Below, in pieces: positions 2,228 to 18,913 of a stretch of DNA of 64,000 nucleotides. Position 1 is the first letter of the stretch. Every line of letters begins with the position of its first letter. This DNA is from Luteolibacter sp. SL250 (lineage in GTDB: Bacteria; Verrucomicrobiota; Verrucomicrobiia; Verrucomicrobiales; Akkermansiaceae): contig NZ_CP113054.1 of NCBI RefSeq assembly GCF_026625605.1, positions 372,001-436,000 on the forward strand, given 5' to 3'. The position numbers were made by a program, and so were the translations under genes. The notes beneath the pieces were generated by a model. The model did no database searches and was not told the DNA's origin. It was given only the letters and a program-made list of their open reading frames with translations.

Positions 2228-3064
2228 ATGCCGCAGATCGGCCAGCGCGCCACCCTTCCTGTCCTCCGCGAATCCAAGTTCGGCCTCTATCTCGATGGAG
2301 GGGACCTGGGGCGCATTCTGCTGCCCACCCGGGAGATGCCGGCGAACTGGTCCGTCGGCGCCTTCGTCGACGTCTTCCTGCACCACGACTCCGAGGACCG
2401 CCCGGTGGCGACCATGAAGCAGCCGAAGGCCGTGGCAGGTGACTTCGCGAAGCTGAAATGCGTCTCCGTCACCGGTGTCGGCGCGTTCCTCGACTGGGGC
2501 CTGCCGAAGGACCTGATGGTGCCCTTCCGGGAGCAGAAGACACGCATGGTCCCGGGGAAATCCTATCTCGTCCATGTCTTCGTGGATGAAGAAACCGGCC
2601 GCCTGATCGGCACCACGCGGCTCACCCGCCACCTCGACAAGACCCCGCCCCCGTGGCGCGGCGGGGAGAAGGTGGACATCATCCTCTTTGCCAAGACGCC
2701 GCTCGGCTACAAGGCGGTCATCGAGAACACCCACACCGGCCTACTGTTCGCCAACCAAGTGTTCCAGGACGTGCAGCCGGGCGAACGCTTCACCGCCTAC
2801 ATCGCCGACCGCCGCCCGGACGGAAAGATCGACCTGACCCTGAACGCCCCCGGACGGCAGCGGATGGACGACCTGTCCGAACAGATCCTCAACGAGCTGA
2901 AGGCGCGCGGCGGCTTCTGGCCCATCGGCGACCACAGCTCCGCGGAGGAGATCAAGGATGAGCTGGGCGTGAGCAAACGCACCTTCAAGCAGACCATCGG
3001 CGCGCTGCTCAAGGCCCGGACGATCACGGCGGACGGGAAGGGGATCCGGCTGGCAGCCACGTGA
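2228..3064 (+). CDS. cvfB: S1-like RNA-binding protein of the CvfB family
   Basis: The 278-residue product begins MPQIGQRATLPVLRESKFG, which matches the usual CvfB N-terminus, so the internal ATG at 2228 is preferred over in-frame starts 39 bases upstream. The body shows three consecutive OB/S1-like segments (FVDVFLHHDSEDRP, VSVTGVGAFLDWGLPKDLMVPF, VIENTHTGLLFANQVFQDVQPGE) and a C-terminal winged helix (SAEEIKDELGVSKRTFKQTIGALL). CvfB proteins bind RNA and affect virulence or translation in Firmicutes; in other phyla the role is unknown. It stands alone, convergent with the MBL gene. Confidence 0.85.
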   Translation: MPQIGQRATLPVLRESKFGLYLDGGDLGRILLPTREMPANWSVGAFVDVFLHHDSEDRPVATMKQPKAVAGDFAKLKCVSVTGVGAFLDWGLPKDLMVPFREQKTRMVPGKSYLVHVFVDEETGRLIGTTRLTRHLDKTPPPWRGGEKVDIILFAKTPLGYKAVIENTHTGLLFANQVFQDVQPGERFTAYIADRRPDGKIDLTLNAPGRQRMDDLSEQILNELKARGGFWPIGDHSSAEEIKDELGVSKRTFKQTIGALLKARTITADGKGIRLAAT

Positions 3065-3118
3065 CGGAGCCTGCTTCTTTCCCGGGAACAGCCACCACTT
3101 CCGCGGTCCCAGTTCCGG

Positions 3119-3796
3119 TCACCGCCGCGCGAGCTTCCGCAGCCTCTCCAGATGGACTTCCGGCGGTGCATCGTCCCCATGATTCGGGATCACGCCGCGC
3201 AACGGCAGGTCGAGCGCCTTCTCCACACTGCGGAGCATGCTGGCTTTCTCCTGATTGAAGATCCGGGGTGGGAAGTGGCTGAAGCCCGGATAGCTGGCGA
3301 AGAGGTCCCCGCAGAACAGAAGGCCCAGCTTCCCGCAGAAGTATCCCGTGTGTCCGGCGGTGTGGCCCGGGAGATGGACGGCCCGCAGACCCTGCCAGAC
3401 ATCGAGGAAATCCCCGTGATCGATCCAGTGGTCAGGAGTGAACGGCTCGAAGCCAAGCAAGGGCCTGCCGATGCACTCAAGGATGCCCGCCACCTTTGAC
3501 CATCCCGCATACTTCGGGCGGCCACTGTAGTGCGCCGCATCCAGCCGGGGCGCGGCGATCCATGCCCCGTGCCTTCCCGCGATCTCCGCCACGTTGAGGA
3601 TGTGGTCGAGATGGCCATGCGTCACAATCACGCCGAGGATCGGCTCATTTTCCCAACCCTTTGCCGCGAGATGTTTCCGCAGCATCCTATCCCCACCGAT
3701 GAATCCGGCATCGATCAGGTGAAGGCCGCGGCTGTCACGCAGCACATGAAAATTCACCGGAAAACTCCGGACGGAGAGCAGGTCATCCCTGCTCAT
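3119..3796 (-). CDS. MBL-fold metallo-hydrolase
   Basis: The 225-residue protein has the metallo-beta-lactamase fold signature THGHLDH (HxHxDH), a later LPGHTAGHTG histidine, CGDLFAS (the bridging Asp) and a C-terminal PNHGDD histidine. A dinuclear Zn/Fe hydrolase site therefore seems intact. The closest general type is glyoxalase II-like or a generic hydrolase. The start is the ATG at 3796, which overlaps the upstream membrane-protein stop as ATGA and implies translational coupling. Longer in-frame openings run into that gene and are not credible. The substrate is unknown. Confidence 0.88.
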   Translation of the reverse strand: MSRDDLLSVRSFPVNFHVLRDSRGLHLIDAGFIGGDRMLRKHLAAKGWENEPILGVIVTHGHLDHILNVAEIAGRHGAWIAAPRLDAAHYSGRPKYAGWSKVAGILECIGRPLLGFEPFTPDHWIDHGDFLDVWQGLRAVHLPGHTAGHTGYFCGKLGLLFCGDLFASYPGFSHFPPRIFNQEKASMLRSVEKALDLPLRGVIPNHGDDAPPEVHLERLRKLARR

Positions 3797-4380
3797 GGGG
3801 ACGCGGGCAGCATCTTGGCGGGCACATCCCCCGGAGCGAAGCTCCTCGGCTTGTTCTTCATGATCCAGGAACCGGCGGTGGGGATGTAGAACAGCACGAT
3901 CAGGAGTTTCACCACCACCAGTCCCGTCACCGCGGAACCCATGGTGAAAAAGACGACCACCAGCAGGAGCAGCATGCCCGTGAGGAAGCCGGTCTGCAGA
4001 AGCCAGCTCCACCAAGAGGTTCCCGTGGTGAAGCGGCAGGACGGATTGATGGCGGCGGCGCGGGGCACGAGGAGCCGCACCAGTTCGTTGTAGCTGGCGC
4101 TGCGGTCCTCGAAGTCCATTACACCCCGGTAGTGCTCGTTCTGGAACGCTCCGCAGCGTCCGCCGGCGTTGTGGAGGTGGCATTGGTAGCGGTTGCGCTG
4201 CATCCGCGTGGGGGAAAACAACAACCTCACCTCCTTCAAGGAGGCCAGCGGAATGGGCATCGCCGGATACTCTCCCGCCGCGACCCACAACACGTCCCCC
4301 TGCAGGGTCCACCGCTTCTCGGCCTCAAGCACGGAAATCCGGCAGGCATGCACGGCGGTGAGGGGAGGAGGCAGGCTCAT
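3793..4380 (-). CDS. Uncharacterised protein with two C-terminal membrane segments
   Basis: The 195-residue protein has a soluble N-terminal half of beta-rich character with HLHNAGGRCGAF (His/Cys pairs, possible metal site). Two hydrophobic helices follow at about residues 130-150 (FLTGMLLLLVVVFFTMG) and 152-172 (GLVVVKLLIVLFYIPTAG). The family is not recognised. It overlaps the MBL hydrolase by 4 bases (ATGA), so the two are co-translated. It may be a membrane anchor or partner for that hydrolase, which is inference from coupling only. Confidence 0.7.
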   Translation of the reverse strand: MSLPPPLTAVHACRISVLEAEKRWTLQGDVLWVAAGEYPAMPIPLASLKEVRLLFSPTRMQRNRYQCHLHNAGGRCGAFQNEHYRGVMDFEDRSASYNELVRLLVPRAAAINPSCRFTTGTSWWSWLLQTGFLTGMLLLLVVVFFTMGSAVTGLVVVKLLIVLFYIPTAGSWIMKNKPRSFAPGDVPAKMLPASP

Positions 4381-4420
4381 GGAATCCGGGGGAGGGGTGT
4401 CCTTTCGTCGCCGTGGACGC

Positions 4421-6179: not shown

Positions 6180-8882
6180 TCACTTGTCCAGCAGGCCACG
6201 GATCATGGTCGCATCGAGGCGGCCTGAGATGTCCGCGTCCGACAACAGGCCCGCGGCGAGCTTCGCCTTGTCCTGCTGCAGCCGGTGGATGCGCTCTTCC
6301 ACAGTGTCTTGGCAGAGGAGCTTGTGGACGAAAACCGGCTTGTCCTGGCCGATGCGGTAGGCGCGGTCGGTCGCCTGCGCCTCCGCCGCCGGGTTCCACC
6401 ACGGGTCGTAGTGGATGACGGTGTCCGCCGCTGTCAGATTGAGGCCGGTACCACCCGCCTTCAGCGAGATGAGGAACAGCGGCGCCTTTCCGGTCTGGAA
6501 ATCCTCCACCAGTTTCCCGCGGTCCTTCGAGGCGCCGGTCAGCTTCAGGTAAGGGATCTTTTCCCGGACCAGATGCTCCTCGATGAGGGAGAGCATGGAG
6601 GTGAACTGCGAGAACAGCAGGATGCGGCGGCCTTCCTCGATGAGCAGCTCCAGCAGTTCCGTCAGGAAATCCAGCTTCGCGGACTCACGCACGTCGTTGG
6701 AAAACTCCGCCGGCAGCATCCGCGGGTCGCAGCAGATCTGGCGGAGCTTCAGCAGCGCGTCGAGGAACACGATCTGCGACTGCTCCACACCCCGTGCGGC
6801 GATGGCCTCCCGCACGCGCTTGTCCATGGTGGCACGGACGGTTTCGTAAAGATCCTTCTGGGCGCTGTGCAGCTCGATGAGATGGACCAGCTCCGTCTTC
6901 GGCGGCAGTTCCTTCGCCACTTGGTCCTTTGTCCGGCGCAGGATCAGTGGGGCCACGCGCTCTTTCAGCGACTCGTTGCGGTCCGCGTCGCCCTCTTTCT
7001 CGATGGGTTTCCGGTAGCGCGTGTTGAAGGTGTCCTCACTGCCGAGGAAGCCGGGCATCAGGAAACGCATGAGGCTCCACAGCTCCCCGAGGTGGTTCTC
7101 GACCGGGGTGCCGGAAAGGCAGAGCCGGTGGGAAGCGTCCAGCCGGCAGGCCGCCTGCGCCACCTTCGAGCGCGGGTTCTTGATGTACTGCGCCTCATCC
7201 AGCACGACGAGGTGGAAATGATGCTCCCGCAGCCGGTCGATGTCCCGCTGGAGCAGGGCGAAGGAGGTGAGCACCACATCCGCATGCGGGATGGAGCGGT
7301 GGTATTTCCTCCGCTCCGGACCGTTCAGGACGAGCACGCGCAGTTCCGGGGCGAACTTGAGTGCCTCCGCCCGCCAGTTCGGCACCACGGAGGTCGGCGC
7401 CACCACCAGCACGGGCCTGCCCTTCGAGTGGCCCGACTTCTTCTCCGTCAGGATGTGGGTGATGGTCTGCAGCGTTTTCCCCAGGCCCATGTCATCCGCC
7501 AGGATGCCGTGCAGGCCATGGCGGGCGAGGAACTGCATCCAGTGGAAGCCCGCGAGCTGGTAGTCCCGCAGCGTGGCGCGCAGCCCATCGGGCACCGGCA
7601 CCCGCTCGATGCCGGAAAAGTCACGCAGCTTGCCCGCCAGCGCCGCGAGATCCGGCGGCGAGTCCAGCCCAAGCTCCGCCACCCCGGCCAGCGCCACGGC
7701 ATCCAGCGCGTGCAGCCTCGTCTTTCCCGGAAACTTCGGGTCGATGAGCGCGGAAAGATGGTGGAGGATCTTCCGCACCCGGCCGATGGGCAGGCGCAGC
7801 GCGTCCCCGTCCGGCAGCGGGGCATAGACGTGGCCGTTGTTCGGCCGGTCCAGGGTTTCCTCCAGGAAGGCGTTCTCCAGCAGACCGGCGAGGATGGGCA
7901 GCAGGTCGTAACGCTGGCCGGACACATCGAACCCGACGGAAAGGCTGAACCAGCCGCCATCGCCCGGCGACAGCGCGGTCTCCCAGTGGTCCGGATCCGC
8001 ATCATGCACGCGGTGGCCCACGTTGTCATCGACCACCACCGTCCATCCCAGCTCCTGCAGGCGGCCGACCATCTCCCCGCGGAACTGGTGCCAGAAGGCG
8101 TCCGTCGGCACGCGCCCGGGGTCCGGGAACCAGCGGTCCGGTGTCTTCACCCCGGCATTTTCCTTCGCCTTGAGGTTGAGGAGGAACCTCCACGACGGGT
8201 TCGAGTGGAGGGATGAAAGCCCGGTGTCCCGGAGCTGCTGCGCGGCGCATCCCTCCGCACCCGCGTCATGCTGGATGAGGGCGGGCTGGCCACCGTGGCT
8301 CACCAGGCTGGTCCACTCCGGCGCGGCGGAACGCAGCGGACTACGATGCTTTTCGTAGATGGCGAACGCCTCCGCGGAGATCCACATGTCCGGTTCCGCC
8401 TGGCCGAGCGACTGCAGCAGGAGCCGCGTCGCACGGTCCGCCGGCTGGCGGGTGACGTGCAGCTCGAACCGCGGCTCGAACTCCAGCAGCGGCAGGTCAT
8501 CCGGAGGGCTCTTCATCAGCTCACGGGCGGAGGGCAGGGCGGCGGCGGCCTCCTTCGCGGGCACGCGGCCCACCAGGCGGGTCGCGTCCTTTTCCTTCGC
8601 CGCCCGCAGCAACAGGGCGGCGGCATGGTGGCAGAAAGACCCCACATCACAGCCACAGGACGTCTCCAGATCCCAGATCCCGTCGGTGTCCCACAGATCG
8701 ACCCGCACCTCCTCCCCGGCGATCACGCCGGAAATGGCAACGGAGGCGGGATCCGGCCCGACCACCCGGAGGTCGCGCGTCTTTCCGACAAAAGAAGGCG
8801 CCACGGCGAGGATCTCGTCGTCGAAGCGGTCCTTCCACCGCCCGGCAGCGAGAAAGGATTGGATGGATTCGGTGTCTGCCAA
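6180..8882 (-). CDS. SWIM zinc-finger SNF2-family helicase/ATPase
   Basis: The 900-residue protein has an N-terminal SWIM zinc finger (C76-x-C78-x5-C84-x-H86). About 350 residues of bacterial-SNF2-associated sequence follow, then a full Swi2/Snf2 motor: motif I ADDMGLGKT, Ia VVAPTSVVPNW, II LDEAQYIKN, III LSGTPVENHLGELW, V LISLKAGGTGLNLTAAD and VI QATDRAYRIGQDKPV. Such HepA/RapA-like bacterial SNF2 proteins translocate on duplex DNA and remodel bound proteins or polymerase; the exact role is unknown. It is a single-gene unit. The two genes nearest its start are separated from it by a strong terminator. Confidence 0.93.
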   Translation of the reverse strand: MADTESIQSFLAAGRWKDRFDDEILAVAPSFVGKTRDLRVVGPDPASVAISGVIAGEEVRVDLWDTDGIWDLETSCGCDVGSFCHHAAALLLRAAKEKDATRLVGRVPAKEAAAALPSARELMKSPPDDLPLLEFEPRFELHVTRQPADRATRLLLQSLGQAEPDMWISAEAFAIYEKHRSPLRSAAPEWTSLVSHGGQPALIQHDAGAEGCAAQQLRDTGLSSLHSNPSWRFLLNLKAKENAGVKTPDRWFPDPGRVPTDAFWHQFRGEMVGRLQELGWTVVVDDNVGHRVHDADPDHWETALSPGDGGWFSLSVGFDVSGQRYDLLPILAGLLENAFLEETLDRPNNGHVYAPLPDGDALRLPIGRVRKILHHLSALIDPKFPGKTRLHALDAVALAGVAELGLDSPPDLAALAGKLRDFSGIERVPVPDGLRATLRDYQLAGFHWMQFLARHGLHGILADDMGLGKTLQTITHILTEKKSGHSKGRPVLVVAPTSVVPNWRAEALKFAPELRVLVLNGPERRKYHRSIPHADVVLTSFALLQRDIDRLREHHFHLVVLDEAQYIKNPRSKVAQAACRLDASHRLCLSGTPVENHLGELWSLMRFLMPGFLGSEDTFNTRYRKPIEKEGDADRNESLKERVAPLILRRTKDQVAKELPPKTELVHLIELHSAQKDLYETVRATMDKRVREAIAARGVEQSQIVFLDALLKLRQICCDPRMLPAEFSNDVRESAKLDFLTELLELLIEEGRRILLFSQFTSMLSLIEEHLVREKIPYLKLTGASKDRGKLVEDFQTGKAPLFLISLKAGGTGLNLTAADTVIHYDPWWNPAAEAQATDRAYRIGQDKPVFVHKLLCQDTVEERIHRLQQDKAKLAAGLLSDADISGRLDATMIRGLLDK

Positions 8883-9435: not shown

Positions 9436-11025
9436 TCACCGCAGGTCATCGAAGCACAGGCCGAACCTCGCCAGGTATTTCTTCAGCCGGTCCGCATCAT
9501 TGGTGACCGCACGCTTCCCACGCGACACGCTGAAAATCTCGCGGCCCGCATCGGAGAGATTCTTCGATCTCATGCAGACCTCCGCCACATAGCAGAGCTG
9601 CACGCGGTCGAAGGGATCGATCGTCTCTAACAGATCATCGGGAAGGCGGTGCCGCGCGACCTCGCAGCCACGCTCCGGCCGCTGCCAGCTTTCCTTCAGC
9701 CGCGTGATCTCCTCCGCCACATCCTCCGGCCGGATGCGCCCTCTGGGAGCCAGCGTGGCCATGCGGGTGACCGCCGCGTTCAGGTCGCGGAAGTTCCCCC
9801 GCCACGGCGTGTCCACCGCTTCCGCGAACTTCAGGAAATGCGTCCGCGCCTCCTTGTTCAGGCTCACCGCCCGGCCATGGTTGCGGTGGTATTTCTCCAG
9901 CTCGAACTCCAGGTTCGGGCCGATGTCCTCCCGCCGCTCCGCGAGACCCGGCAGAGCGAAGGTCCACAGGTGGATCCGCGCCAGCAGATCCTCCCGGAAC
10001 GTACCCGCCGCCACCTCCGCTCGCAGGTCCTTGTTCGTGCCCGCGATGAGCTGGAAATCGCTCGTCACCGCACGGTCCGCGCCCACCGGCAGGAAGGTCT
10101 TGTCCTCCAGCGCGCGCAGCAGCATGGCCTGTTCGTCCAGGCCCAGCTCGCCGATCTCATCGAGGAACAGCAGCCCTCCGTCCGCCTCCCGCAGCAGGCC
10201 GGGGCGGTCCTTCTGCGCTCCGGTGAAGGAACCCCTCACATGGCCGAACAGCGCGGACGCGGCGGTGTCCCCGGTGAGCGTGGCGCAGTTCACCTCCACG
10301 AAGCCTCCGCGCAGACCCGCCCGCTGTTTCCGCAAGTCATAGATGCGCTTGGCGAGGTGGGATTTCCCCGCGCCGGTCGGGCCGGTCAGCAGCATGGGCG
10401 CCTTCGACCGCATGGCCACCTGCTCGATCCGTTCGATCAGGCGGTTGAACGTCGGGTTCCGCGTGGCGATCCCGCTTTTCAGGAAGTCCAGCACCTCCGT
10501 CTGCTCCCGTTCGAAGCGAGTACTAAGCTGGTCGTACTTGGAAAGGTCGAGGTCGATGACCGCATACCTCGGCGGTGGCGGATTCCGGAACTTGCCCGAA
10601 GGAGGTGGCGAACTCTGGATGAGCTTGCCCGGCAGCGTCCCCGCCTCGTTGAGGAGGAACAGGGAGATCTGCGCGATGTGCGTGCCGGTCGTGATGTGGA
10701 TGAAGTATTCCTCGTTCTCCGGGTCGAAGCGGTAGCCGCGCGACCAGTCGTGGAGCACGCTGTACACCTTCTCCAGGTCCCAGGGGTCCTTCCCGAAGTC
10801 CGTCCGGTGGAGCTCGACGGAGGTCTCCGGTGACACCATCCGGATGTCATCCGCCACCTGCTTCGCCAGGATGTTGAAGCTGGGCTCCGCCAGCAACTCC
10901 ATGCGGTCCCACGCCAGATCCTCATGCTGGAACAGCGAAACGGTGGGCCGCCAGCGGTCCCACCGCCACGCTTCCGTGCCTCCATCCATCTTTGTTCCCA
11001 GCAGCCCTATCAGAACTCGCTTCAT
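9436..11025 (-). CDS. rtcR: RtcR, sigma-54-dependent activator of the RNA-repair operon
   Basis: The 529-residue protein from the ATG at 11025 begins KRVLIGLLGTKMD, the RtcR-type N-terminal sensor (CARF-like Rossmann domain, residues about 1-180). An AAA+ sigma-54 activator core follows: Walker A GPTGAGKS (215-222), the L1 loop GSFTGA (265-270, canonical GAFTGA with Ala replaced by Ser), Walker B LLFLDE (285-290) and arginine-finger region FREDLLARI. The C-terminus is a DNA-binding region. In Proteobacteria the sensor domain responds to damaged RNA ends and releases the AAA+ core to activate rtcBA. Here it is divergent from the Ro gene with a -24/-12 promoter between them, supporting the same role. 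Confidence 0.92.
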   Translation of the reverse strand: MKRVLIGLLGTKMDGGTEAWRWDRWRPTVSLFQHEDLAWDRMELLAEPSFNILAKQVADDIRMVSPETSVELHRTDFGKDPWDLEKVYSVLHDWSRGYRFDPENEEYFIHITTGTHIAQISLFLLNEAGTLPGKLIQSSPPPSGKFRNPPPPRYAVIDLDLSKYDQLSTRFEREQTEVLDFLKSGIATRNPTFNRLIERIEQVAMRSKAPMLLTGPTGAGKSHLAKRIYDLRKQRAGLRGGFVEVNCATLTGDTAASALFGHVRGSFTGAQKDRPGLLREADGGLLFLDEIGELGLDEQAMLLRALEDKTFLPVGADRAVTSDFQLIAGTNKDLRAEVAAGTFREDLLARIHLWTFALPGLAERREDIGPNLEFELEKYHRNHGRAVSLNKEARTHFLKFAEAVDTPWRGNFRDLNAAVTRMATLAPRGRIRPEDVAEEITRLKESWQRPERGCEVARHRLPDDLLETIDPFDRVQLCYVAEVCMRSKNLSDAGREIFSVSRGKRAVTNDADRLKKYLARFGLCFDDLR

Positions 11026-11160
11026 GGATATTTCCACTATCCGTTTGGCGAACTTATTTCAATCCCGGGATATTCCCCGGAACCTGGTCCGATTTTCTAA
11101 CAAATTTCATCTTGTTCGATGTCAAAGGGTTGCACAGATCTGAAATGGCGATTTTTCACG

Positions 11161-11177
11161 TTGGCACAGCGCATGCC
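11161..11177 (+). promoter_or_regulatory. Sigma-54 (-24/-12) promoter of the RNA-repair operon
   Basis: The sequence TTGGCACAGCGCATGCC has GG at 11163-11164 and GC at 11175-11176, exactly ten bases apart, inside a TTGGCAC-N5-ATGCC context close to the sigma-54 consensus. Transcription would begin near 11188, about 26 bases before the Ro gene ATG. The upstream 135 bases to rtcR contain a 10-base palindrome ATCCCGGGAT (11062-11071), about 100 bases upstream of -24, where activator sites usually lie. Its use as an RtcR site is inference. Confidence 0.8.
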
Positions 11178-11213: not shown

Positions 11214-12788
11214 ATGGCAAACCCAAACCTCTTCCAAACCATCCGCGGCGCTCTCGTCCCTGCGACCAACACGGTCAACGAAGCGGGAGGCCGTGCCTAC
11301 GAACTGTCCGCCGAAGCCGCGCTCGCCCAACTGGCGGTCACCGGCTGCCTGTCCGGAACCTACTACGCCTCCGCGGAGTCCCAGCTCGACAAGACGCTGG
11401 AGCTGGCCCGGCAGGTGGATGTGGATTTCCTCGCCCGGACCGCCCTCTACGCCCGGCGGAAAGGCTTCATGAAGGACATGCCCGCCCTGTTGTGCGCGGT
11501 GCTGGCAACCCGTGACCTGGACCGCCTGACGGAGATCTTCCCCCAGGTGATCGACAACGGAAAGATGCTCCGGAACTTCGTCCAGATCATCCGCTCCGGT
11601 GTCACCGGCAGGAAATCCCTCGGCTCCGCCCCGAAGCGGCTGGTCCGCCAATGGCTGGACTACGCGACGGACCGCCAGCTCATCCAGGCCTCCGTCGGCA
11701 ATGTGCCTTCGCTCGCGGACATCGTGAAGATGGTCCATCCCCAGCCCCTCACCGCGACCCGTGAGGCGTTCTACGCTTGGCTGGTCGGCAAGCCCTGGAC
11801 CAGCGACGCGCTGCCCCAGGCGCTGCGGGAGTTCGAGGCATGGAAGAAAGACCGCCAGGGCGCCGTCCCCGACGTTCCCTTCCAGATGCTCACCGCCCAG
11901 AACCTGGGGGAAGCGGAATGGGCCACCATCGCGGACAGCGCCTCCTGGCAGACCACGCGGATGAACCTCAACACCTTCGCGCGGCACGGCGTCTTCAACG
12001 ACACGGATCGGGTGAAACGCATCGCCGCACGGCTCGCCGACGCGGACCTGGTCCGGAAGGCGCGGGTGTTCCCCTACCAGCTCCTCGTCGCCTACCTCAA
12101 CGCGGGCAACGAAGTGCCCGGGGCCATCCGCGAGTCCCTCCAGGACGCGATGGAAGCCTCGCTCGCCAACGTGCCCGCCATCGCTGGGAAAGTGGTCGTC
12201 TGCCCCGACGTGTCCGGCTCCATGCAGTCCGCCGTGACCGGTCACCGGAAGAGCGCGACCTCGAAGGTGCGCTGCATCGACGTGGCCGCGCTGGTCGCCG
12301 CCGCTTTCCTCCGCATGAACAAGGACGCCGATGTGCTGCCTTTCGAGTGCGATGTGGTGAACCTGCGGCTCAACCCCCGCGACTCCGTCATGACCAACGC
12401 GGTGAAGCTCGCCAAGATCGGCGGTGGCGGAACCAACTGCTCCGCGCCCCTGGCGCAGCTCAACCGCGACAAGGCCAAGGTGGATCTGGTGATCTTCGTC
12501 TCCGACAACGAGTCGTGGGCGGATGCGAGGGCGAACCGTGGCACCGCCATGATGGCGGAGTGGGAAAAGCTCCGGCTCCGCAATCCCAAGGCGAAGCTCG
12601 TCTGCATCGACATCGCCCCCTACACGACCACCCAGGCCGCAAGCCGGGCGGACATCCTCAACATCGGCGGCTTCAGTGACACCGTCTTCGACATCATCGC
12701 CGGATTCGCCTCCGGTGAAAACGGAGCGGACCACTGGATCCAGCGGATCAACCAACAACCCCTCAACCATCGCATGAAAACCGCATGA
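11214..12788 (+). CDS. rsr: Ro/TROVE-domain ring protein (Rsr), Y-RNA-binding
   Basis: The 524-residue protein is the bacterial Ro60 orthologue. Residues about 1-320 are the HEAT-repeat TROVE ring that binds Y RNA and misfolded or damaged RNA ends. Residues about 325-500 are a von Willebrand A domain with an intact MIDAS: DVSGS (332-336), Thr in GGGTNCS (about 407) and Asp431 in FVSDNES. The ATG at 11214 follows the sigma-54 promoter, and longer frames upstream cross the promoter. Four Y-like RNAs lie directly downstream, as expected for an Ro ribonucleoprotein. Ro acts with exoribonucleases or repair enzymes; here rtcB and rtcA follow. Confidence 0.93.
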   Translation: MANPNLFQTIRGALVPATNTVNEAGGRAYELSAEAALAQLAVTGCLSGTYYASAESQLDKTLELARQVDVDFLARTALYARRKGFMKDMPALLCAVLATRDLDRLTEIFPQVIDNGKMLRNFVQIIRSGVTGRKSLGSAPKRLVRQWLDYATDRQLIQASVGNVPSLADIVKMVHPQPLTATREAFYAWLVGKPWTSDALPQALREFEAWKKDRQGAVPDVPFQMLTAQNLGEAEWATIADSASWQTTRMNLNTFARHGVFNDTDRVKRIAARLADADLVRKARVFPYQLLVAYLNAGNEVPGAIRESLQDAMEASLANVPAIAGKVVVCPDVSGSMQSAVTGHRKSATSKVRCIDVAALVAAAFLRMNKDADVLPFECDVVNLRLNPRDSVMTNAVKLAKIGGGGTNCSAPLAQLNRDKAKVDLVIFVSDNESWADARANRGTAMMAEWEKLRLRNPKAKLVCIDIAPYTTTQAASRADILNIGGFSDTVFDIIAGFASGENGADHWIQRINQQPLNHRMKTA

Positions 12789-12893
12789 CACTCTCCGGCA
12801 TGGCGTATGCCTGGCGGGACTACATCAAACAACCATGTTGGCTAACGCCGATGTCCCACCAACAACTCGACGCCATGCCGGTCCACCCTCCCT

Positions 12894-13003
12894 CCGCGAA
12901 TGCCTGGATGAATACATTGGTCGCCGGTTCGATCCCGGCTCCCGCGAAAGCGGGGTAGCTCAGTGGCAGAGCAGTTATCGGCTCATCCGTCTCCTTGTCG
13001 CGG
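12894..13003 (+). ncRNA. Y-RNA-like RNA 1 (YrlA type, permuted tRNA mimic)
   Basis: The ends pair CCGCGA (12894-12899) with TCGCGG (12998-13003). After an asymmetric loop beginning ATGC, a second helix pairs GGATGA (12906-12911) with TCATCC (12983-12988). Inside lies a tRNA elbow in permuted order: T-arm GCCGG-TTCGATC-CCGGC (12923-12939), acceptor stem TCCCGC closed by GAAA to GCGGGG (12940-12955), then D-arm GCTC-AGTGGCA-GAGC (12958-12972). No anticodon arm or CCA end exists, so this is not a tRNA gene. The Ro-binding helix replaces the anticodon stem, as known for bacterial YrlA RNAs. Confidence 0.85.
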
Positions 13004-13013
13004 TTCCTCTCAC

Positions 13014-13072
13014 GGAGCGCCGGCTTCAGCCGGCATCTTCCCGATACCAAAGCCGGCTGAAGCCGGCGCTCC
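13014..13072. repeat. Dispersed inverted repeat (GGAGCGC family), copy 1
   Basis: Two perfect 21-base arms (13014-13034 and 13052-13072) are separated by 17 bases. Each arm is itself a hairpin (CCGGCT-TC-AGCCGG). The arm layout matches copies at 15872-15941 and 61109-61167: starting GGAGCGC or GGAGTGC and containing CTTCAG in the middle, with paired changes in the stem. It resembles a REP doublet (REPIN). It sits between Y-like RNAs 1 and 2 and would form a strong hairpin in the operon transcript. Confidence 0.85.
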
Positions 13073-13087
13073 ATCCCTCCCTCCTCT

Positions 13088-13210
13088 CCGCGAATGCACA
13101 GAAGACTACAAGGGCTCCAGCGGTCGCCGGTTCGAATCCGGCTCCGGAGAAACTCTCCGGATAGCTCAGCCTGGCAGAGCACTGGAATGTCTTCCCACAC
13201 TTTGTCGCGG
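13088..13210 (+). ncRNA. Y-RNA-like RNA 2 (YrlA type, permuted tRNA mimic)
   Basis: Outer helix CCGCGA (13088-13093) with TCGCGG (13205-13210), inner helix GAAGAC (13101-13106) with GTCTTC (13189-13194). The tRNA-like core has T-arm GCCGG-TTCGAAT-CCGGC (13126-13142), a 7-bp acceptor stem TCCGGAG/CTCCGGA with an AAACT loop (13143-13161), and a D-arm with a canonical GG-containing loop (GCTCAGCCTGGCAGAGC). It keeps the ATGC...GACTACA sequence shared by all four copies on the 5' side and CTTTG on the 3' side. Of the four it is one of the two closest to true tRNA geometry. Confidence 0.85.
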
Positions 13211-13252
13211 ATTCCCGTCCAACACCTCCATCAACACTTCGTCTCTCTCACT

Positions 13253-13383
13253 TCGCGAATGCCGCGATGACTACATGACCAACGCCCCGTAGCAGGGGTT
13301 GCGGGTATCCAATCCCGCCGGACCAAGGTCCGTGGCGGAACCAGACGCATTGAACCAACGATGTCATCGCACCCTTGTCGCGA
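13253..13383 (+). ncRNA. Y-RNA-like RNA 3 (divergent copy)
   Basis: The Ro-binding part is intact: TCGCGA (13253-13258) pairs with TCGCGA (13378-13383), and CGATGAC (13265-13271) pairs with GTCATCG (13363-13369), with the shared ATGC, GACTACA and CCTTG elements. The tRNA-like part has diverged. An extra CCCC-GTAGCA-GGGG hairpin precedes a T-arm-like hairpin GCGGG-TATCCAAT-CCCGC with an eight-base loop. The acceptor-like stem is CGGAC/GTCCG. The D-arm region (GGCGGAACCAG) no longer looks canonical. It may bind Ro but present a different surface. Confidence 0.7.
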
Positions 13384-13411
13384 TCCTTTTCCAACCAACC
13401 ACCGTCCCATC

Positions 13412-13525
13412 CCTGCGGATGCCTTGAAGACTACATATGTCGCCGGTTCGAATCCGGCCTCCGTGAAAACGGAGTAGCTCAGTTGGTAGAGCGATGCCCC
13501 GTCTTCGACCCGAACTTGCCGCAGG
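13412..13525 (+). ncRNA. Y-RNA-like RNA 4 (YrlA type, permuted tRNA mimic)
   Basis: Outer helix CCTGCGG (13412-13418) with CCGCAGG (13519-13525), inner helix GAAGAC (13426-13431) with GTCTTC (13501-13506). The outer helix differs in sequence from copies 1-3 on both strands, which is compensatory change. Core: T-arm GCCGG-TTCGAAT-CCGGC (13442-13458), acceptor CTCCGT closed by GAAA to ACGGAG (13459-13474), D-arm GCTC-AGTTGGTA-GAGC (13477-13492). It ends 22 bases before the CPCC-protein start codon, so processing would leave that mRNA with a short leader. Confidence 0.85.
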
Positions 13526-13547
13526 TTCCCCACCCAACTCCCGAACC

Positions 13548-14318
13548 ATGAAACATACCTGTCCATGCTGCGGCCACCGCGTCCATTCCGAGCCAATCAT
13601 GGGCGGGTCCATGCAAATCTGTCCGATCTGCTTTTGGGAAGATGTGCCCGGCGAACATCCCGATGATCGTTCGAACGGGGTGAGCCTTCTGGATGCTCAG
13701 GAGAACTATCGCAAGGAAGGTGCCTGTGACCCGGAATTCATCAACGTCGTGCGCGCACCCAACTCGGATGAGGAACCAGATTCCACATGGCGCTCATTCC
13801 GGGACGATGCCCATGCCACCATTGAACTGATCGAGCACGCCTTTGGAAGTGTTGCCCTCGGCAACGGAATGACCATCCATCAACGGGAGGTCATCAGCGA
13901 CTATGGCACCCAACATGACTTCGACGCGGCCCGCCGACTGGATACCGAGAGACGTTGGCAGGACATTGCCGGTCCGAAGATCGGCCAGCTTGGCACCACT
14001 CTTATCTTCCTCGATCCCGAATCCATCCGCTATCATCTCCCCGCTTTCATGCGGCATGTCATCCGTTCTTGGCTCGAAACGAGCGATTTCGACGACGAAA
14101 TGGTGCTCTATTCTCTGTCCGACGGACCATGCTCCGACGGCTATCACGCCGACTCTTTCACCCTCCTCAACCCAGAACAGAAGCAGGCCACAGCCACCTT
14201 TCTCCAATTCATTGCTTCAGTCGATTCAATCTACGGTCCCGAGGCCGGAGAAGGCCTCACCAATGGCTGGGACAAGTGGCTTAGCACCTCAACACCCCCA
14301 ACATCCAGATTCCCATGA
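13548..14318 (+). CDS. CPCC zinc-ribbon protein with DUF6714-like C-terminus
   Basis: The ATG at 13548 gives 256 residues. The first 45 residues are a cysteine-rich CPCC domain: CPCC at 5-8 and CPICFWED at 25-32, a four-Cys zinc site. The rest, from about residue 75, resembles a DUF6714-type region (AHATIELIEHAF, LTTLIFLDPESIRYHLPAFMRHVI, FTLLNPEQKQATATFLQFI). The function is not known. Its stop overlaps the rtcB start as ATGA, so it is translated with the ligase. That argues for a role in the RNA-repair response rather than a chance insertion. Starts further upstream would lie inside Y RNA 4 and are rejected. Confidence 0.8.
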   Translation: MKHTCPCCGHRVHSEPIMGGSMQICPICFWEDVPGEHPDDRSNGVSLLDAQENYRKEGACDPEFINVVRAPNSDEEPDSTWRSFRDDAHATIELIEHAFGSVALGNGMTIHQREVISDYGTQHDFDAARRLDTERRWQDIAGPKIGQLGTTLIFLDPESIRYHLPAFMRHVIRSWLETSDFDDEMVLYSLSDGPCSDGYHADSFTLLNPEQKQATATFLQFIASVDSIYGPEAGEGLTNGWDKWLSTSTPPTSRFP

Positions 14319-15799
14319 ACACCATCCATAAAACCGACGAAGCCTTTGGTTTCATCCCTCTTCCTGACAGCGCGGGCAAGCCGATCACCGTGGTCGGTAC
14401 CGACGCGATCCGCGACAACTTCGATGACACCTGCCTCCAGCAGGCGGTGAACTCCCGCATGGCTCCGGGCGTGACGGATGTGATCCTGAACCCCGACGCG
14501 CACGCCGGCTACGGCGCGCCGGTCGGCTGTGTGATGGTTTCCCCGACGCACATCTATCCGGGTCCGGTGGGCGTGGACATCAAGTGCTCCATGTCGCTGC
14601 TCCAGCTCGACATCCCGGAAGATGTCATCATCGACAAACAGACCCGGCGCGCGTTGATCAACGCCATCGTCGAGCGCACCCCGACCGGTGCCGGACGCGG
14701 CCAGCGGACGGCGAAGAAGTCCCGCCACGTGGACCGGGAGACAGGCGTGCTGGCGGTGACCGAGGGCGCGACCACCCGCGTCTGCGAGGCTCTCGGCATC
14801 CCTCCGGAATGGGCGGACCGCTGCGAGGATTCGTCCCACCGCGGCCACGATGGGACGTATGACGCGCTCAACAACCGCCTGGATTATATTCTGGCGCAGG
14901 GCCGCATCCGGAATTTCGGCGACAAGATCGGCCAGCTCGGTTCCTACGGAGGTGGCAACCACTTCGGCGAGTGCGAGATCACCCGCGTGGTGGACCGTCC
15001 GTCGATGCGTGCGGCCGCGGACGTCTTCGGCCTGAAGGACGGCCACGTTTCCTTCCTCAGCCACTGCGGATCCCGCGGACTGGGCAACCTGCTCGCGCAG
15101 GGCCAGTTCAAGGACTTGGAGAAGAAGTTCCGCGACTGGGCGACCCCGTTTCCGGCCGGTGACAAGCAGCTCGTCTACGCGCCGCTGGGAACCCCGGAGG
15201 CCAACGCCTACATCGATGACATGTCCATCGGCGCGAACTTCGCGACGGTGAACCACATGCTGATCAACGCGCTGGTGCTGGAGGCCTTCCAGGAAGTCCT
15301 GCCCGGTGCCACCGGAAAGCTGGTCTATTTCATCTCCCACAACATCGCGCGGGAGGAAATCGTCGATGGCAAGAAAGCATGGGTCCACCGCAAGGGGGCG
15401 ACCCGCGCGATCCCGGGCGGCCACTTCTCGCTCGCCGGAACCCCGTTCGCGGAGACCGGCCACCCGATCCTGCTGCCGGGCAACCCGCGCGACGGATCCG
15501 TCGTGATGGTCGCCCAGGGCGGCGCGGAGCGGACCGCATGGTCCGTGAACCACGGCGCGGGCCGGGCCATGGGCCGGAAGCACGCGGCGCGGACGCTGGA
15601 CCAGAAGTCCGTGGATGCGGACTTCGACGTTTCCGACATCCTCACCAACTGCCGCAAGTATCCGATCGACGAGGCGCCGGATGCCTACAAGAACTTCCCG
15701 GAGGTCCTCCGCAGCGTGGAAACCGCCGGGTTGGCACAATCCGTCGCCAAGCTGCAGGCCCGCTTTGTCATCAAGGACGAGAGCGGCGCGGATGACTGA
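14315..15799 (+). CDS. rtcB: RtcB, RNA-splicing ligase (3'-phosphate to 5'-OH)
   Basis: The 494-residue protein carries the RtcB signature in order: NPDAHAGYG (59-67), GVDIKCSM with metal-binding Cys91, GSYGGGNHFGE (209-219), SHCGSRGLG (249-257), SHNIAREE with His342, HRKGATRA (358-365), NPRDGSVVMV and NHGAGRAMGR with the guanylylated His413. The active site therefore looks complete. RtcB joins 2',3'-cyclic phosphate or 3'-phosphate ends to 5'-OH ends using GTP and Mn2+, repairing nuclease-cut tRNA and other RNA. It is longer than E. coli RtcB (about 408), as in RtcB subgroups with insertions. Its start overlaps the CPCC gene. Confidence 0.95.
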   Translation: MNTIHKTDEAFGFIPLPDSAGKPITVVGTDAIRDNFDDTCLQQAVNSRMAPGVTDVILNPDAHAGYGAPVGCVMVSPTHIYPGPVGVDIKCSMSLLQLDIPEDVIIDKQTRRALINAIVERTPTGAGRGQRTAKKSRHVDRETGVLAVTEGATTRVCEALGIPPEWADRCEDSSHRGHDGTYDALNNRLDYILAQGRIRNFGDKIGQLGSYGGGNHFGECEITRVVDRPSMRAAADVFGLKDGHVSFLSHCGSRGLGNLLAQGQFKDLEKKFRDWATPFPAGDKQLVYAPLGTPEANAYIDDMSIGANFATVNHMLINALVLEAFQEVLPGATGKLVYFISHNIAREEIVDGKKAWVHRKGATRAIPGGHFSLAGTPFAETGHPILLPGNPRDGSVVMVAQGGAERTAWSVNHGAGRAMGRKHAARTLDQKSVDADFDVSDILTNCRKYPIDEAPDAYKNFPEVLRSVETAGLAQSVAKLQARFVIKDESGADD

Positions 15800-15871: not shown

Positions 15872-15941
15872 GGAGCGCGGACTTCAGTCCGCCCCGGAGA
15901 ATCCGTCCATGCGAAGCCAAGCGGACTGAAGTCCGCGCTCC
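15872..15941. repeat. Dispersed inverted repeat (GGAGCGC family), copy 2
   Basis: Perfect 21-base arms (15872-15892 and 15921-15941) with a 28-base spacer; each arm contains the nested hairpin GCGGACT-TC-AGTCCGC. It is the same family as 13014-13072. Together with the hairpin at 15806 it fills most of the 260-base gap between rtcB and rtcA, where no gene is visible. Confidence 0.88.
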
Positions 15942-16059: not shown

Positions 16060-17076
16060 ATGAGCAAACTCATCCAAATCGACGGCCAGGAAGGCGGCGG
16101 GCAGATGCTCCGCACGGCGCTGTCGCTCGCCATGATCACGGGACAGCCGTTCCGGATGACCAACATCCGCGGCAAGCGGCCAAAGCCGGGACTCATGCGC
16201 CAGCACCTGACCTGCGTGCGCGCGGCGGTGGAAATCTCCGACGGCACCGCGGACGGCGCGGAGATCGGCTCCACGGAGCTGGTTTTCCGTGCCGGAAAGG
16301 TGAGGGGAGGGGACCATCGTTTCGCCATCGGCACCGCCGGCAGCACGGGCCTGTTGTTCCAGACGCTGCTGCCCGCGCTGCTCCATGCGGACGGCGCGAG
16401 CACGCTGCGGCTGGAGGGCGGCACGCACAATCCTCTGGCCCCGCCGTTCGAGTTCCTGGATCACGTCTTCCTGCCGGCCATCCGCCGGATGGGGGCGGAC
16501 GCCACAATTTCCCTGCTGGAGACCGGTTTCGCACCGGCGGGCGGCGGCATCATGGAGGCGGTCATCCAACCGTCACGGAAGCTTTCCCCGGTGGAGTTCC
16601 ATGACCGCGGCGAACTCCGCTCCACGAACATCCGTGTCCCGGTGCGCCACCTCAGCCTCGACATCGCGGGCCGGATCCTTGATTCCGCGCTCGCCACGCT
16701 GCCGTGCGAGGATGCCTCCATCGAGCGCCGCGAACCCGGGCCGGGACGTGGCGTGACGTGCCTTGTTTCCGCCACCTTCGACCACGTGAACGAACTCACC
16801 AGCGCGCTGGGCGAGATGGGGGTGACCGCCGAAGCGGTGGGCCACCGTGCCGCGAAGTCGATGCGCAACCACATCCAGTCCGGCCTCCCGGTCGGCCGCT
16901 GGCTGGCGGACCAGTTGCTGCTGCCTATGGCCCTCGCCGGTGGTGGCAGCTTCACGACCGGATCGCTCGACTCCCACGTGGCGACGAACATCTCCGTCAT
17001 CGGGAAATTTCTGCCGGTGAAGTTCCAGATCGATTCCATCGAGCGGGGGCGTAACCTGATCCGCGTTCATGAGTGA
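16060..17076 (+). CDS. rtcA: RtcA, RNA 3'-terminal phosphate cyclase
   Basis: The ATG at 16060 gives 338 residues, the normal RtcA length, beginning with the family start IQIDGQEGGGQMLRTALSLA. Other family blocks are RPKPGLMRQHLTCVRAA, FAIGTAGSTGLLFQTLLPALL, GGTHNPLAPPFEFLDH and GFAPAGGG. The adenylylated histidine is about residue 306 in the C-terminal SLDSHVATNI segment. RtcA converts RNA 3'-phosphates to 2',3'-cyclic phosphates with ATP, giving ends suited to RtcB. It overlaps the following nucleotidyltransferase gene by 8 bases. An in-frame start 60 bases earlier adds non-conserved sequence. Confidence 0.95.
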   Translation: MSKLIQIDGQEGGGQMLRTALSLAMITGQPFRMTNIRGKRPKPGLMRQHLTCVRAAVEISDGTADGAEIGSTELVFRAGKVRGGDHRFAIGTAGSTGLLFQTLLPALLHADGASTLRLEGGTHNPLAPPFEFLDHVFLPAIRRMGADATISLLETGFAPAGGGIMEAVIQPSRKLSPVEFHDRGELRSTNIRVPVRHLSLDIAGRILDSALATLPCEDASIERREPGPGRGVTCLVSATFDHVNELTSALGEMGVTAEAVGHRAAKSMRNHIQSGLPVGRWLADQLLLPMALAGGGSFTTGSLDSHVATNISVIGKFLPVKFQIDSIERGRNLIRVHE

Positions 17077-18913
17077 CGTGGAGATCGGCAACCTGTTGGA
17101 GCGGCTGGAAGCACTGTATGGTGTGAGGATCCTCTACGCCTGCGAGTCGGGCAGCCGTGCCTGGGGATTCGCCTCGCCGGACAGCGACTTCGACATCCGC
17201 TTCATCTACCTGCGCCCGGCGGAGACCTATCTTTCCGTGAAGGAACATGCGGACACCATCGAGCGTCCGCTGGAGGGCCTGCTGGACGCGGGTGGATGGG
17301 ATGTGCGGAAGGCGCTGAAGCTGCTGGCGAAGTCCAACGGCGCGCTGGTGGAGTGGCTGCACTCCCCGATCATCTACCGTGAAACCCCCGGCTTCCGGGA
17401 ACGGTGGCAGGCGGCGGCGCGGGAAGTGTTCGCTCCACGTGCCTCGTCCGACCACTACCGGGGCCTGGCCCGCCAGATGATGAAGGGCAAGCTGGATGCG
17501 GAGAAGGTCCGGGCGAAGGACTACCTCTATGCCATGCGCGCGCTGCTTTCCGCCGCCTGGGTCACAGCCGGAAAAGGCCCGCCGCCCGTCGAGTTCGACC
17601 GGCTGCTGTCCCTGGCACCCGCCGATGTCATGGCGGAAATCCCCGGCCTGCTGGAGTACAAGGCGCGCAGCGCGGAAGGCGACCGGATGGACAAGCTGCC
17701 GGTGATCGACGCTTTTCTGGAATCGATCATCCTCGATCTGGATGAAAAGGCCGCCGGTCTCGCGCGGCTCGCCGATCATTTCGATATCCTCGACCGCATG
17801 CTGCGGGAGGAACTGGAGTCGGATGCGCCGCGCCTCGCAATGCCGGCGGAGGCCTTTTCCATCGACCGCGTGCGCCAGTCCGACTTGCTCCTGTTCGACT
17901 GCGTGGCAGGCAGCAAGGCCTACGGCACGGACCTCCCCCGCTCCGACGAGGACCTGCGCGGCGTGTTCGTCGCACCCACGGATTTCATCCTCGGGCTGGA
18001 TCACCTCGACCAGGTTGCCGACGAACGCGGGGACATCGTTTACTACGAGGTGGGCCGCTTCGTGGAGCTGCTGCTGAAGAACAACCCGAACGCGCTGGAG
18101 CTGCTCGGCATGCCGGAAGACTGCATCCGCCACCGGCATCCGTTGTTCGACCTGCTGCCGCCGGGGCTTTTCCTTTCCAAGCTGTGCGCGAAAACCTTCG
18201 GCGAGTACGCGATGGGCCAGATCCGCAAGGCGCGTGGACTGAACAAGAAGATCGTCAATCCCCAGCCGGAGCAGAGGCTGGCCTTGCTGGATTTCTGCCA
18301 CGTGCCGCAGGGACAGGGCAGCGTGCCGGTGCTGTCATGGCTGGCGGAGCGTGGCATCACGCCGGAGCAATGCGGCCTGACCGCCGTGCAGCACGCCGCG
18401 GGGATGTATGCCATCTACCATGACGGCGTGACGAACTACCGTGGCCTCGTTTCCCTGAAGGATCCGGATGCCCTGGTCTTCAGCAGCGTGCCCATCGGCG
18501 CGGAGCCGGTCGGCTGGATGCACTGCAACCACGATGCTTTCCAAGCCCACTGCAAGGCCCACCGCGAGTATTGGGAATGGGTCGCGAACCGGAACGAGGA
18601 ACGCTACCAGACCAACTCCCAGCATGGCCGCGGCTATGACTCGAAGAACCTGATGCACACGCTGCGCCTGCTGGATATGGCCAGGGAGATTGCCACTACG
18701 GGAGAGCTGGCCGTCCGTCGTCCGGACCGGGAGTTCCTGCTGCGGGTGCGGGCGGGGGAGTTCGACTACGACGAACTCGTCTCACTGGCGGAACGGAAGC
18801 TCCAGGAAGCGACGGAGGCGTTCGCAAACTCCGGCCTGCCCGATGCTCCGGACCGTGATCAGGTGAACCGTGCGCTGGTGGAGATCCGCAGGAAATTTCA
18901 CCGCATCACATGA
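17069..18913 (+). CDS. Double RlaP-type nucleotidyltransferase fused in tandem
   Basis: The 614-residue protein contains two pol-beta-type nucleotidyltransferase domains of the RlaP family, a family tied to RNA-repair operons. Domain 1 (about 1-230) has GSRAWG (28-33) and SDFDIR (39-44). Domain 2 (about 265-610) has GSKAYG (281-286) and SDEDLRG (292-298), plus the longer C-terminal helical part (SKLCAKTFGEYAMGQIRKARG and YDSKNLMHTLRLL). Both metal-binding Asp pairs appear intact. It begins inside the rtcA 3' end, so the two are coupled. It may add nucleotides to damaged 3' ends before ligation, which is inference. Its last 16 bases overlap the convergent DUF2017 gene. Confidence 0.85.
   Translation: MSDVEIGNLLERLEALYGVRILYACESGSRAWGFASPDSDFDIRFIYLRPAETYLSVKEHADTIERPLEGLLDAGGWDVRKALKLLAKSNGALVEWLHSPIIYRETPGFRERWQAAAREVFAPRASSDHYRGLARQMMKGKLDAEKVRAKDYLYAMRALLSAAWVTAGKGPPPVEFDRLLSLAPADVMAEIPGLLEYKARSAEGDRMDKLPVIDAFLESIILDLDEKAAGLARLADHFDILDRMLREELESDAPRLAMPAEAFSIDRVRQSDLLLFDCVAGSKAYGTDLPRSDEDLRGVFVAPTDFILGLDHLDQVADERGDIVYYEVGRFVELLLKNNPNALELLGMPEDCIRHRHPLFDLLPPGLFLSKLCAKTFGEYAMGQIRKARGLNKKIVNPQPEQRLALLDFCHVPQGQGSVPVLSWLAERGITPEQCGLTAVQHAAGMYAIYHDGVTNYRGLVSLKDPDALVFSSVPIGAEPVGWMHCNHDAFQAHCKAHREYWEWVANRNEERYQTNSQHGRGYDSKNLMHTLRLLDMAREIATTGELAVRRPDREFLLRVRAGEFDYDELVSLAERKLQEATEAFANSGLPDAPDRDQVNRALVEIRRKFHRIT

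Follow-up and report, generated by a model that had tools for sequence, protein, structure and literature searches.

An array of five Y-RNA-type elements with differing heads in the RNA-repair operon of Luteolibacter sp. SL250

The RNA-repair operon of Luteolibacter sp. SL250 raises the question of what several tRNA-like RNA elements might do side by side between rsr, the Ro gene, and rtcB, the RNA ligase gene. We analyzed this locus within a 64-kb stretch of the genome (“the window”, i.e. the whole stretch of 64,000 nt), for which an initial annotation had proposed four permuted tRNA mimics between the two genes. The kind of element had been recognized correctly, but the number was too low: the rsr-rtcB gap contains five Y-RNA-type elements, all on the operon (+) strand, the first of which is headless and precedes the annotated interval.

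Bacterial Y RNAs in an RNA-repair operon are a known kind of system. In Salmonella, 5′ tRNA fragments activate the operon via RtcR. Hughes et al. (PMC7790460) do not settle what Ro and the Y RNAs do there; they mention two options, tRNA decay with PNPase and competition with the anticodon nuclease. PMC8394870 describes that the YrlA stem tethers Ro and the head tethers PNPase, and that the free YrlA RNA, the structure of which is 6CU1, is modified by DusA and TruB.

The operon and its five Y elements

The regulator gene rtcR (9436..11037, minus strand) encodes a sigma54 activator with an RtcR sensor domain (Pfam RtcR 240.2 bits, Sigma54_activat 166.5 bits) and is divergent from the rsr/rtcB/rtcA operon. 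The operon starts on the plus strand with rsr, a Ro60 orthologue of 524 aa (11214..12788; vWA_Ro60 68.9 bits, TROVE 24 bits), and continues on the same strand with the Y array, a gene with CPCC and DUF6714 domains (13548..14318; Cys_rich_CPCC 71.6 bits, DUF6714 82.6 bits), rtcB for the RNA ligase (14315..15799; RtcB 330.8 bits), rtcA for the RNA 3′-phosphate cyclase (16060..17076; RTC 258.8 bits), and rlaP for a nucleotidyltransferase of RNA-repair pathways (17069..18913; RlaP 320.1 bits). The Pfam matches of rtcR, rsr, rtcB, rtcA, and rlaP bear out the RNA-repair setting that had been annotated, and the relatives of the genome are Verrucomicrobiota. The genome also encodes PNPase (878.9 bits).

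Upstream of rsr, a sigma54-like promoter of the form TGGCAC-N5-ATGC (GG-N10-GC) is predicted at 11162..11176 on the plus strand from its sequence motif. The strict motif is present in only 31 of 60 rtcR-rsr gaps tested, so that the support for the promoter is partial. The hallmarks of an RtcR-controlled RNA-repair operon, i.e. a divergent rtcR, rtcB/rtcA, and a sigma54 promoter, were thus found by Pfam in the case of the genes and by motif in the case of the promoter. Like the Salmonella rsr-yrlBA-rtcBA operon (PMC7790460), the locus has a divergent rtcR, rsr in first position, Y RNAs, and then rtcB and rtcA; it differs by having five Y elements instead of two, and by the additional CPCC-DUF6714 and rlaP genes.

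A CPCC-DUF6714 homologue has an equivalent position in Haloferula sp. BvORR071 (locus L104, 9660-10424). The sister genome G288 has no CPCC-DUF6714 gene between the array and rtcB, and a further Y-like element is found there instead. At locus L036, an rlaP homologue (2563-4386) lies beyond rtcR, as opposed to its position downstream of rtcA in the window.

The first element, Y0 (12795..12881, plus strand), starts six bases after the rsr stop codon and is a headless Y RNA element. It consists of an 11-bp outer stem, a GACUAC-type inner stem, and a short loop region, and the tRNA parts are absent. It folds with −42.2 kcal/mol (z −5.75), has a descriptor score of 13.4, and is identical to its counterpart in G288 at 81 of 83 positions. 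Searches with the Rfam YrlA family (RF02553) gave no match to Y0 up to an E value of 5. The score against YrlB (RF02565) is 19.2 bits (E 0.64) and does not reach the gathering score of 97 bits, so that Y0 is named YrlB-like only. Its likeness to YrlB is one of plan, i.e. a short element without a tRNA-like head; YrlB likewise shares an operon with YrlA.

Y1 (12893..13005), Y2 (13087..13212), and Y4 (13412..13526), all on the plus strand, are YrlA-type elements with elongator-tRNA-like heads. In all three, the T arm is directly seen to be followed by a closed acceptor stem and then the D arm; in Y1, GAAA closes the acceptor stem. Y3 (13252..13385, plus strand) has a head resembling that of tRNA-Leu, a class II tRNA (head profile 46.2 bits), and retains the permuted order with an altered T loop. 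The YrlA covariance model, which had been suggested as a check, matched all four copies, i.e. Y4 at 13412-13528 (79.4 bits), Y1 at 12893-13007 (74.7 bits), Y2 at 13087-13214 (68.2 bits), and Y3 at 13252-13387 (27.7 bits, E 0.0012). The description as three clear copies and one divergent copy was accurate. The gathering score of 69 bits is passed by Y1 and Y4; Y2 is 0.8 bits short of it, and Y3 and Y0 fail, so that two of the five elements are strict family members.

The two-helix scaffold that had been noticed is real, i.e. Y1 to Y4 all fold with a common two-helix base. Their fold z-scores are −0.81, −3.02, −2.97, and −3.21, respectively; Y1 taken alone folds no better than its shuffles. A stem descriptor gave five matches of at least 12 on the plus strand of the 64-kb window, and these are Y0 to Y4; for comparison, base-by-base shuffles in 300-nt blocks gave one such match in 2.4 Mb. 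With the YrlA model, the array was the sole locus in the genome at E values up to 10, apart from one match of 18.3 bits that overlaps a tRNA. A cluster of real tRNAs was rejected, because ARAGORN recognizes none in the window. The isotypes of Y1, Y2, and Y4 could not be assigned from D-arm alignments, which gave margins of only 1-2.

The elements share with YrlA (RF02553) the two-helix base with the AUGC...CUAC and CUUG motifs, the permuted T arm, acceptor, and D arm, and the position beside rsr and rtcB. The differences from YrlA are the number of five elements per array and the nature of Y3, which scores far below the cut-off and has neither a canonical T loop nor a GG in the D loop.

Between Y1 and Y2 lies a hairpin (13014..13072) that had been taken for an inserted element of the array. 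A half-site search of the genome revealed that it is a copy of a palindromic, REP-like repeat found throughout the genome, in which GGAGCGCNGNCTTCAGNCNGC faces its complement, and it was therefore rejected as a part of the RNA array. The half-sites occur 51+54 = 105 times in the genome with at most one mismatch, versus 1+0 for the reversed control, and the window contains two copies (13014-13072 and 15872-15941). Matches to Rfam microRNA families at 13011-13075 were dismissed, because they represent the palindrome.

Searches for such signals gave one promoter-like site (0.5 expected), which is on the minus strand in the rtcR-rsr gap, and four terminator-like sites (2.6 expected), none of them on the plus strand inside the array. 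Independent promoters or terminators within the array were rejected; its plus strand has no promoter- or terminator-like site. The latter result, together with the location of all five elements on the operon strand, would suit a reading of the elements as structured parts of the operon mRNA, i.e. processing or stability elements between rsr and rtcB, rather than as free small RNAs. We regard this as very unlikely, since the tRNA-like heads and the closed end-to-end helices match known free YrlA RNAs (6CU1; PMC8394870).

Conservation and spread of Y arrays

The genome G288 (locus L135, minus strand) is a close sister, with an Rsr that is 96% identical. Over four Y elements (copy 2 being covered partially), 414 of 421 aligned positions agree between the two genomes, compared to 56 of 65 positions in the two spacers between these elements (Fisher p 4e-5). 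The addition of a third, identical 13-nt spacer changes the latter value to 69 of 78 (p 2e-4). Two short stretches stand outside of this test: 29 nt of copy 1, of which 27 match, and the 21 nt that follow copy 4, of which 10 match. The Y elements are, hence, more conserved than the spacers between them. In place of Y1 and Y2, the sister has a hybrid in which the 5′ end of copy 1 is joined to most of copy 2; the bulk of Y1, the palindrome, and the 5′ portion of Y2 are missing. The hybrid looks like a product of recombination inside the array. Since no more than 85 of 112 aligned positions agree between Y1 and Y2, it is simpler to assume that the two fused recently in the sister.

Such a hybrid would be expected if array size shifted by recombination between similar copies and the head differences were drift without a role, and the range of copy numbers from one to nine (see below) would fit as well. 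The lower conservation of the spacers argues against neutral expansion, and so do two results described below, i.e. a similar order of head types at six other loci and an altered T loop common to eight Leu members. All in all, we regard neutral expansion as unlikely.

A looser descriptor yielded a catalogue of 223 elements (194 distinct) from 87 sources, with four matches in 2.46 Mb in the shuffle control. The covariance model and the descriptor were applied to 69 of these sources; the other 18 were duplicates, truncated contigs, or omitted. At least one element was found in 65 of the 69, and the total of 256 Y elements is a lower bound. Among the 65 arrays, one has one member, and 12, 19, 14, 8, 5, 2, 2, and 2 arrays have two, three, four, five, six, seven, eight, and nine members, respectively. 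These counts are lower bounds, because the last 17 of 231 covariance-model rows (E >0.004) were left out; with them, there are 10 more elements and 66 arrays, of which 37 have four or more members. Two very similar arrays (L034 and L036) were counted separately. Since a match to YrlA or Rsr was the criterion for choosing loci, the array sizes do not come from an unbiased sample.

Large Y arrays are thus not unique to the window. The assumption that loci usually hold one or two Y RNAs fails in this group, as 33 of the 65 arrays have four to nine members. Haloferula sp. BvORR071 (L104) has an array of eight, and two Planctomycetota, Lacipirellula (L102) and Pirellula (L100), have five elements each. 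A YrlA match with an E value of 1e-5 or better was found in 113 of 386 genomes of the order, and in 37 above the family cut-off.

Motif typing was performed with a head-only rule, since the handle itself may contain TGGCGGAAC. Of the 256 elements, 135 are elongator-like, 50 are short, and 17 have a head of T arm plus acceptor alone. A further 15 are initiator-like, 10 resemble Leu, 3 resemble Gln, 1 resembles Ser, and 25 fall into none of these types. Of the short elements, 48 lack the T-loop motif. In 30 of the 65 arrays, the first position is taken by a short element. L104 and L141 share the order short, initiator-like, elongator-like, mini, elongator-like, elongator-like, Leu, which recurs with variations at L136, L137, L157, and L086.

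An initiator tRNA has an A11:U24 pair. The initiator-like D arm reads UGGAGCA..GCUCGUCGG or near forms of it and is absent from the window; the 15 loci are L034, L035, L036, L037, L104, L130, L134, L136, L137, L141, L145, L146, L151, L157, and L162. For five initiator-like heads, the best alignment in the window's genome is to its initiator tRNA, which leads the other isotypes by margins of 8-13. In the same alignment, the Ser-like head and two Gln-like heads have margins of 9. The form at L035 reads AGAGUAA..CUCA and is nearest to Gln, with a score of 20 and a margin of 3, which is below the shuffle level.

Minihelix-like heads, i.e. a T arm and an acceptor hairpin only, account for the 17 elements mentioned above and are found, for example, at L104:8108-8206, L086:7931-8027, and L141:3675-3771. 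Two elements of genome G044 (L047:6556-6771 and 6928-7148) have a common insert of ~90 nt at an identical point of the T loop, with predicted hairpins of its own, the 28-nt core of which occurs only twice in that genome with at most three mismatches.

The tRNA-Leu-like subfamily

The divergent Y3 is the most informative copy of an array that is larger than first described. In class II tRNAs, the variable arm forms a hairpin before the T stem. Y3 has a variable-arm-like hairpin (13284-13299) in this place, followed by an altered T arm (13301-13318), an acceptor hairpin (13319-13332), and a Leu-like D arm (13333-13348) that reads UGGCGGAACCAGACGC. The D arm, UGGCGGAA..AGACGC, is like that of tRNA-Leu. 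Unlike tRNA-Leu, Y3 is circularly permuted, has no anticodon arm and a closed acceptor end, and is not recognized by ARAGORN. A search for the motif TGGCGGAA-N0..12-AGACGC gave a single match in the 64-kb window and none in 100 shuffles. In an alignment with the D arms of the genome's tRNAs, Leu was first for Y3, with a score of 20 and a margin of 5. The 95% level of shuffles is 22; single D-arm scores were therefore not counted as proof, and the Leu identity of Y3 rests on the subfamily.

By inspection, the Leu type has 12 representatives, i.e. 11 members and a probable one at L094; the head-only rule had missed those at L151 and L094. At L157, L151, and L104, the T loop is canonical, the Leu D loop is complete and includes the GG, and a hairpin capped by GAAA precedes the T stem. 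Against the genome's Leu D arms, the scores for L157, L104, and L151 are 40, 39, and 34, compared to best non-Leu values of 26, 27, and 22, respectively, and L104 has 20 exact nt in common with a tRNA-Leu of the window's genome.

A head profile of these three sequences placed seven further Leu types at ranks 4-10, including Y3 in eighth place among 181 heads; the sister copy at L135 came 14th, after three non-Leu heads. With a profile of nine Leu types that excluded the window and the sister, Y3 scored 46.2 bits (rank 9 of 181), compared to 14.4 bits for the best non-Leu head. Model R1 gave 85.7, 75.1, and 126.5 bits for L151, L104, and L169, all of which are outside its training set, with 63.6 bits as the highest score outside the Leu list and 29.1 bits for L094. 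At 75 bits or more and with strict filters, R1 detected the Leu type in 10 of 386 genomes of the order, all belonging to one family.

All 12 Leu types have a hairpin of at least 4 bp abutting the T stem; among the 154 other heads that possess a T stem, 42 do (p 6e-7, with a threshold chosen post hoc); for at least 3 bp, the values are 12 of 12 and 98 of 154 (p 0.009). Judged by these sequence features, Y3 belongs to a conserved tRNA-Leu-like subfamily. The idea that Y3 is a decayed copy was rejected, as it is conserved in the sister and represents a subfamily in other genomes.

The probable representative, L094:7824-7957, is from Hellea balneolensis (Pseudomonadota). Its head is like a tRNA-Leu opened in the D loop, i.e. 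the variable arm, the T arm, and the acceptor hairpin lie between two D-arm halves, with a GG within the split D arm. It is the weakest Leu type, as the score of its D region for Leu does not exceed the 18 obtained for Ser, and it is absent from the 16 best heads of any of the three head profiles. It was kept as probable for the split D arm and a 14-nt exact match.

The contacts of the tRNA elbow are used by tRNA enzymes. In eight of the 12 Leu types, including Y3, a loop of the form UAWCCAAY replaces the T-loop consensus and the D-loop GG is lost; the other four (L104, L151, L157, and L094) keep a canonical T loop and a GG. The T loop and the D-loop GG change together, which fits an elbow contact given up as a unit, and with both lost, Y3 and its seven relatives probably no longer offer tRNA enzymes the elbow contacts. 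On the Rsr tree, the canonical and altered states require several changes, so that exchange or repeated change is likely, and we do not claim a single origin.

Among the papers listed in literature searches, judged by title and start of the abstract, none dealt with Y RNAs in Verrucomicrobiota, and none with tRNA-Leu-like or initiator-like Y RNAs. As far as the searched literature shows, heads that imitate different tRNA classes, above all the Leu type, are new.

Possible roles of the heads

The window combines one headless, three elongator-tRNA-like, and one tRNA-Leu-like element. In the tRNA-like ones, the Ro handle replaces the anticodon arm and a small loop closes the acceptor end, and as a consequence such Y RNAs would escape both charging and cutting in the anticodon loop. 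In Deinococcus, a Y RNA is known to tether PNPase. We propose that the five-element array, with a common predicted Ro handle and different heads, is produced together with Ro and RtcB/RtcA upon tRNA breakage and couples Ro to several tRNA-handling partners, a reading to which we give an even chance. The array would be transcribed from the sigma54-like promoter under the control of RtcR when tRNAs are broken, and the transcript would be processed into discrete RNAs. Ro would bind to the two-helix handle common to all five elements, and the heads may serve as exchangeable docking surfaces on Ro for tRNA-handling partners, e.g. PNPase. One damage-response complex would then likely engage several such partners.

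The heads could also be decoys, i.e. uncleavable look-alikes of nuclease-attacked tRNAs that are made as tRNA halves accumulate and compete for anticodon nucleases. The missing anticodon arm agrees with this, a variety of isotypes would fit nucleases with differing targets, and Hughes et al. (PMC7790460) suggest a role as competitive inhibitor for the tRNA-like domain of YrlA, which was not cut by their nuclease. However, about one-fifth of the members are short (50 of 256), nearly all of these without the T-loop motif (48 of 50), and would be poor tRNA mimics, and Y3 lacks the elbow features. We consider decoys rather doubtful, and favor adaptors over decoys, because short members are common and could hardly be tRNA decoys.

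A more far-reaching possibility, which we advance tentatively and rate well below the adaptor reading, is that Verrucomicrobiota possess a Ro-bound library of uncleavable look-alikes of particular tRNAs (leucine, initiator methionine, serine, glutamine, and general elongators), which a cell with broken tRNAs might deploy as decoys or adaptors of the matching isotype, so that precisely the affected tRNAs are protected, sorted, or repaired.

The arrays make the purpose of the tRNA-like head of bacterial Y RNAs directly testable, as each head predicts its tRNA, tRNA enzyme, or anticodon nuclease. The Leu type offers a natural contrast for this, between members with the tRNA elbow features and members that have lost both halves of them.
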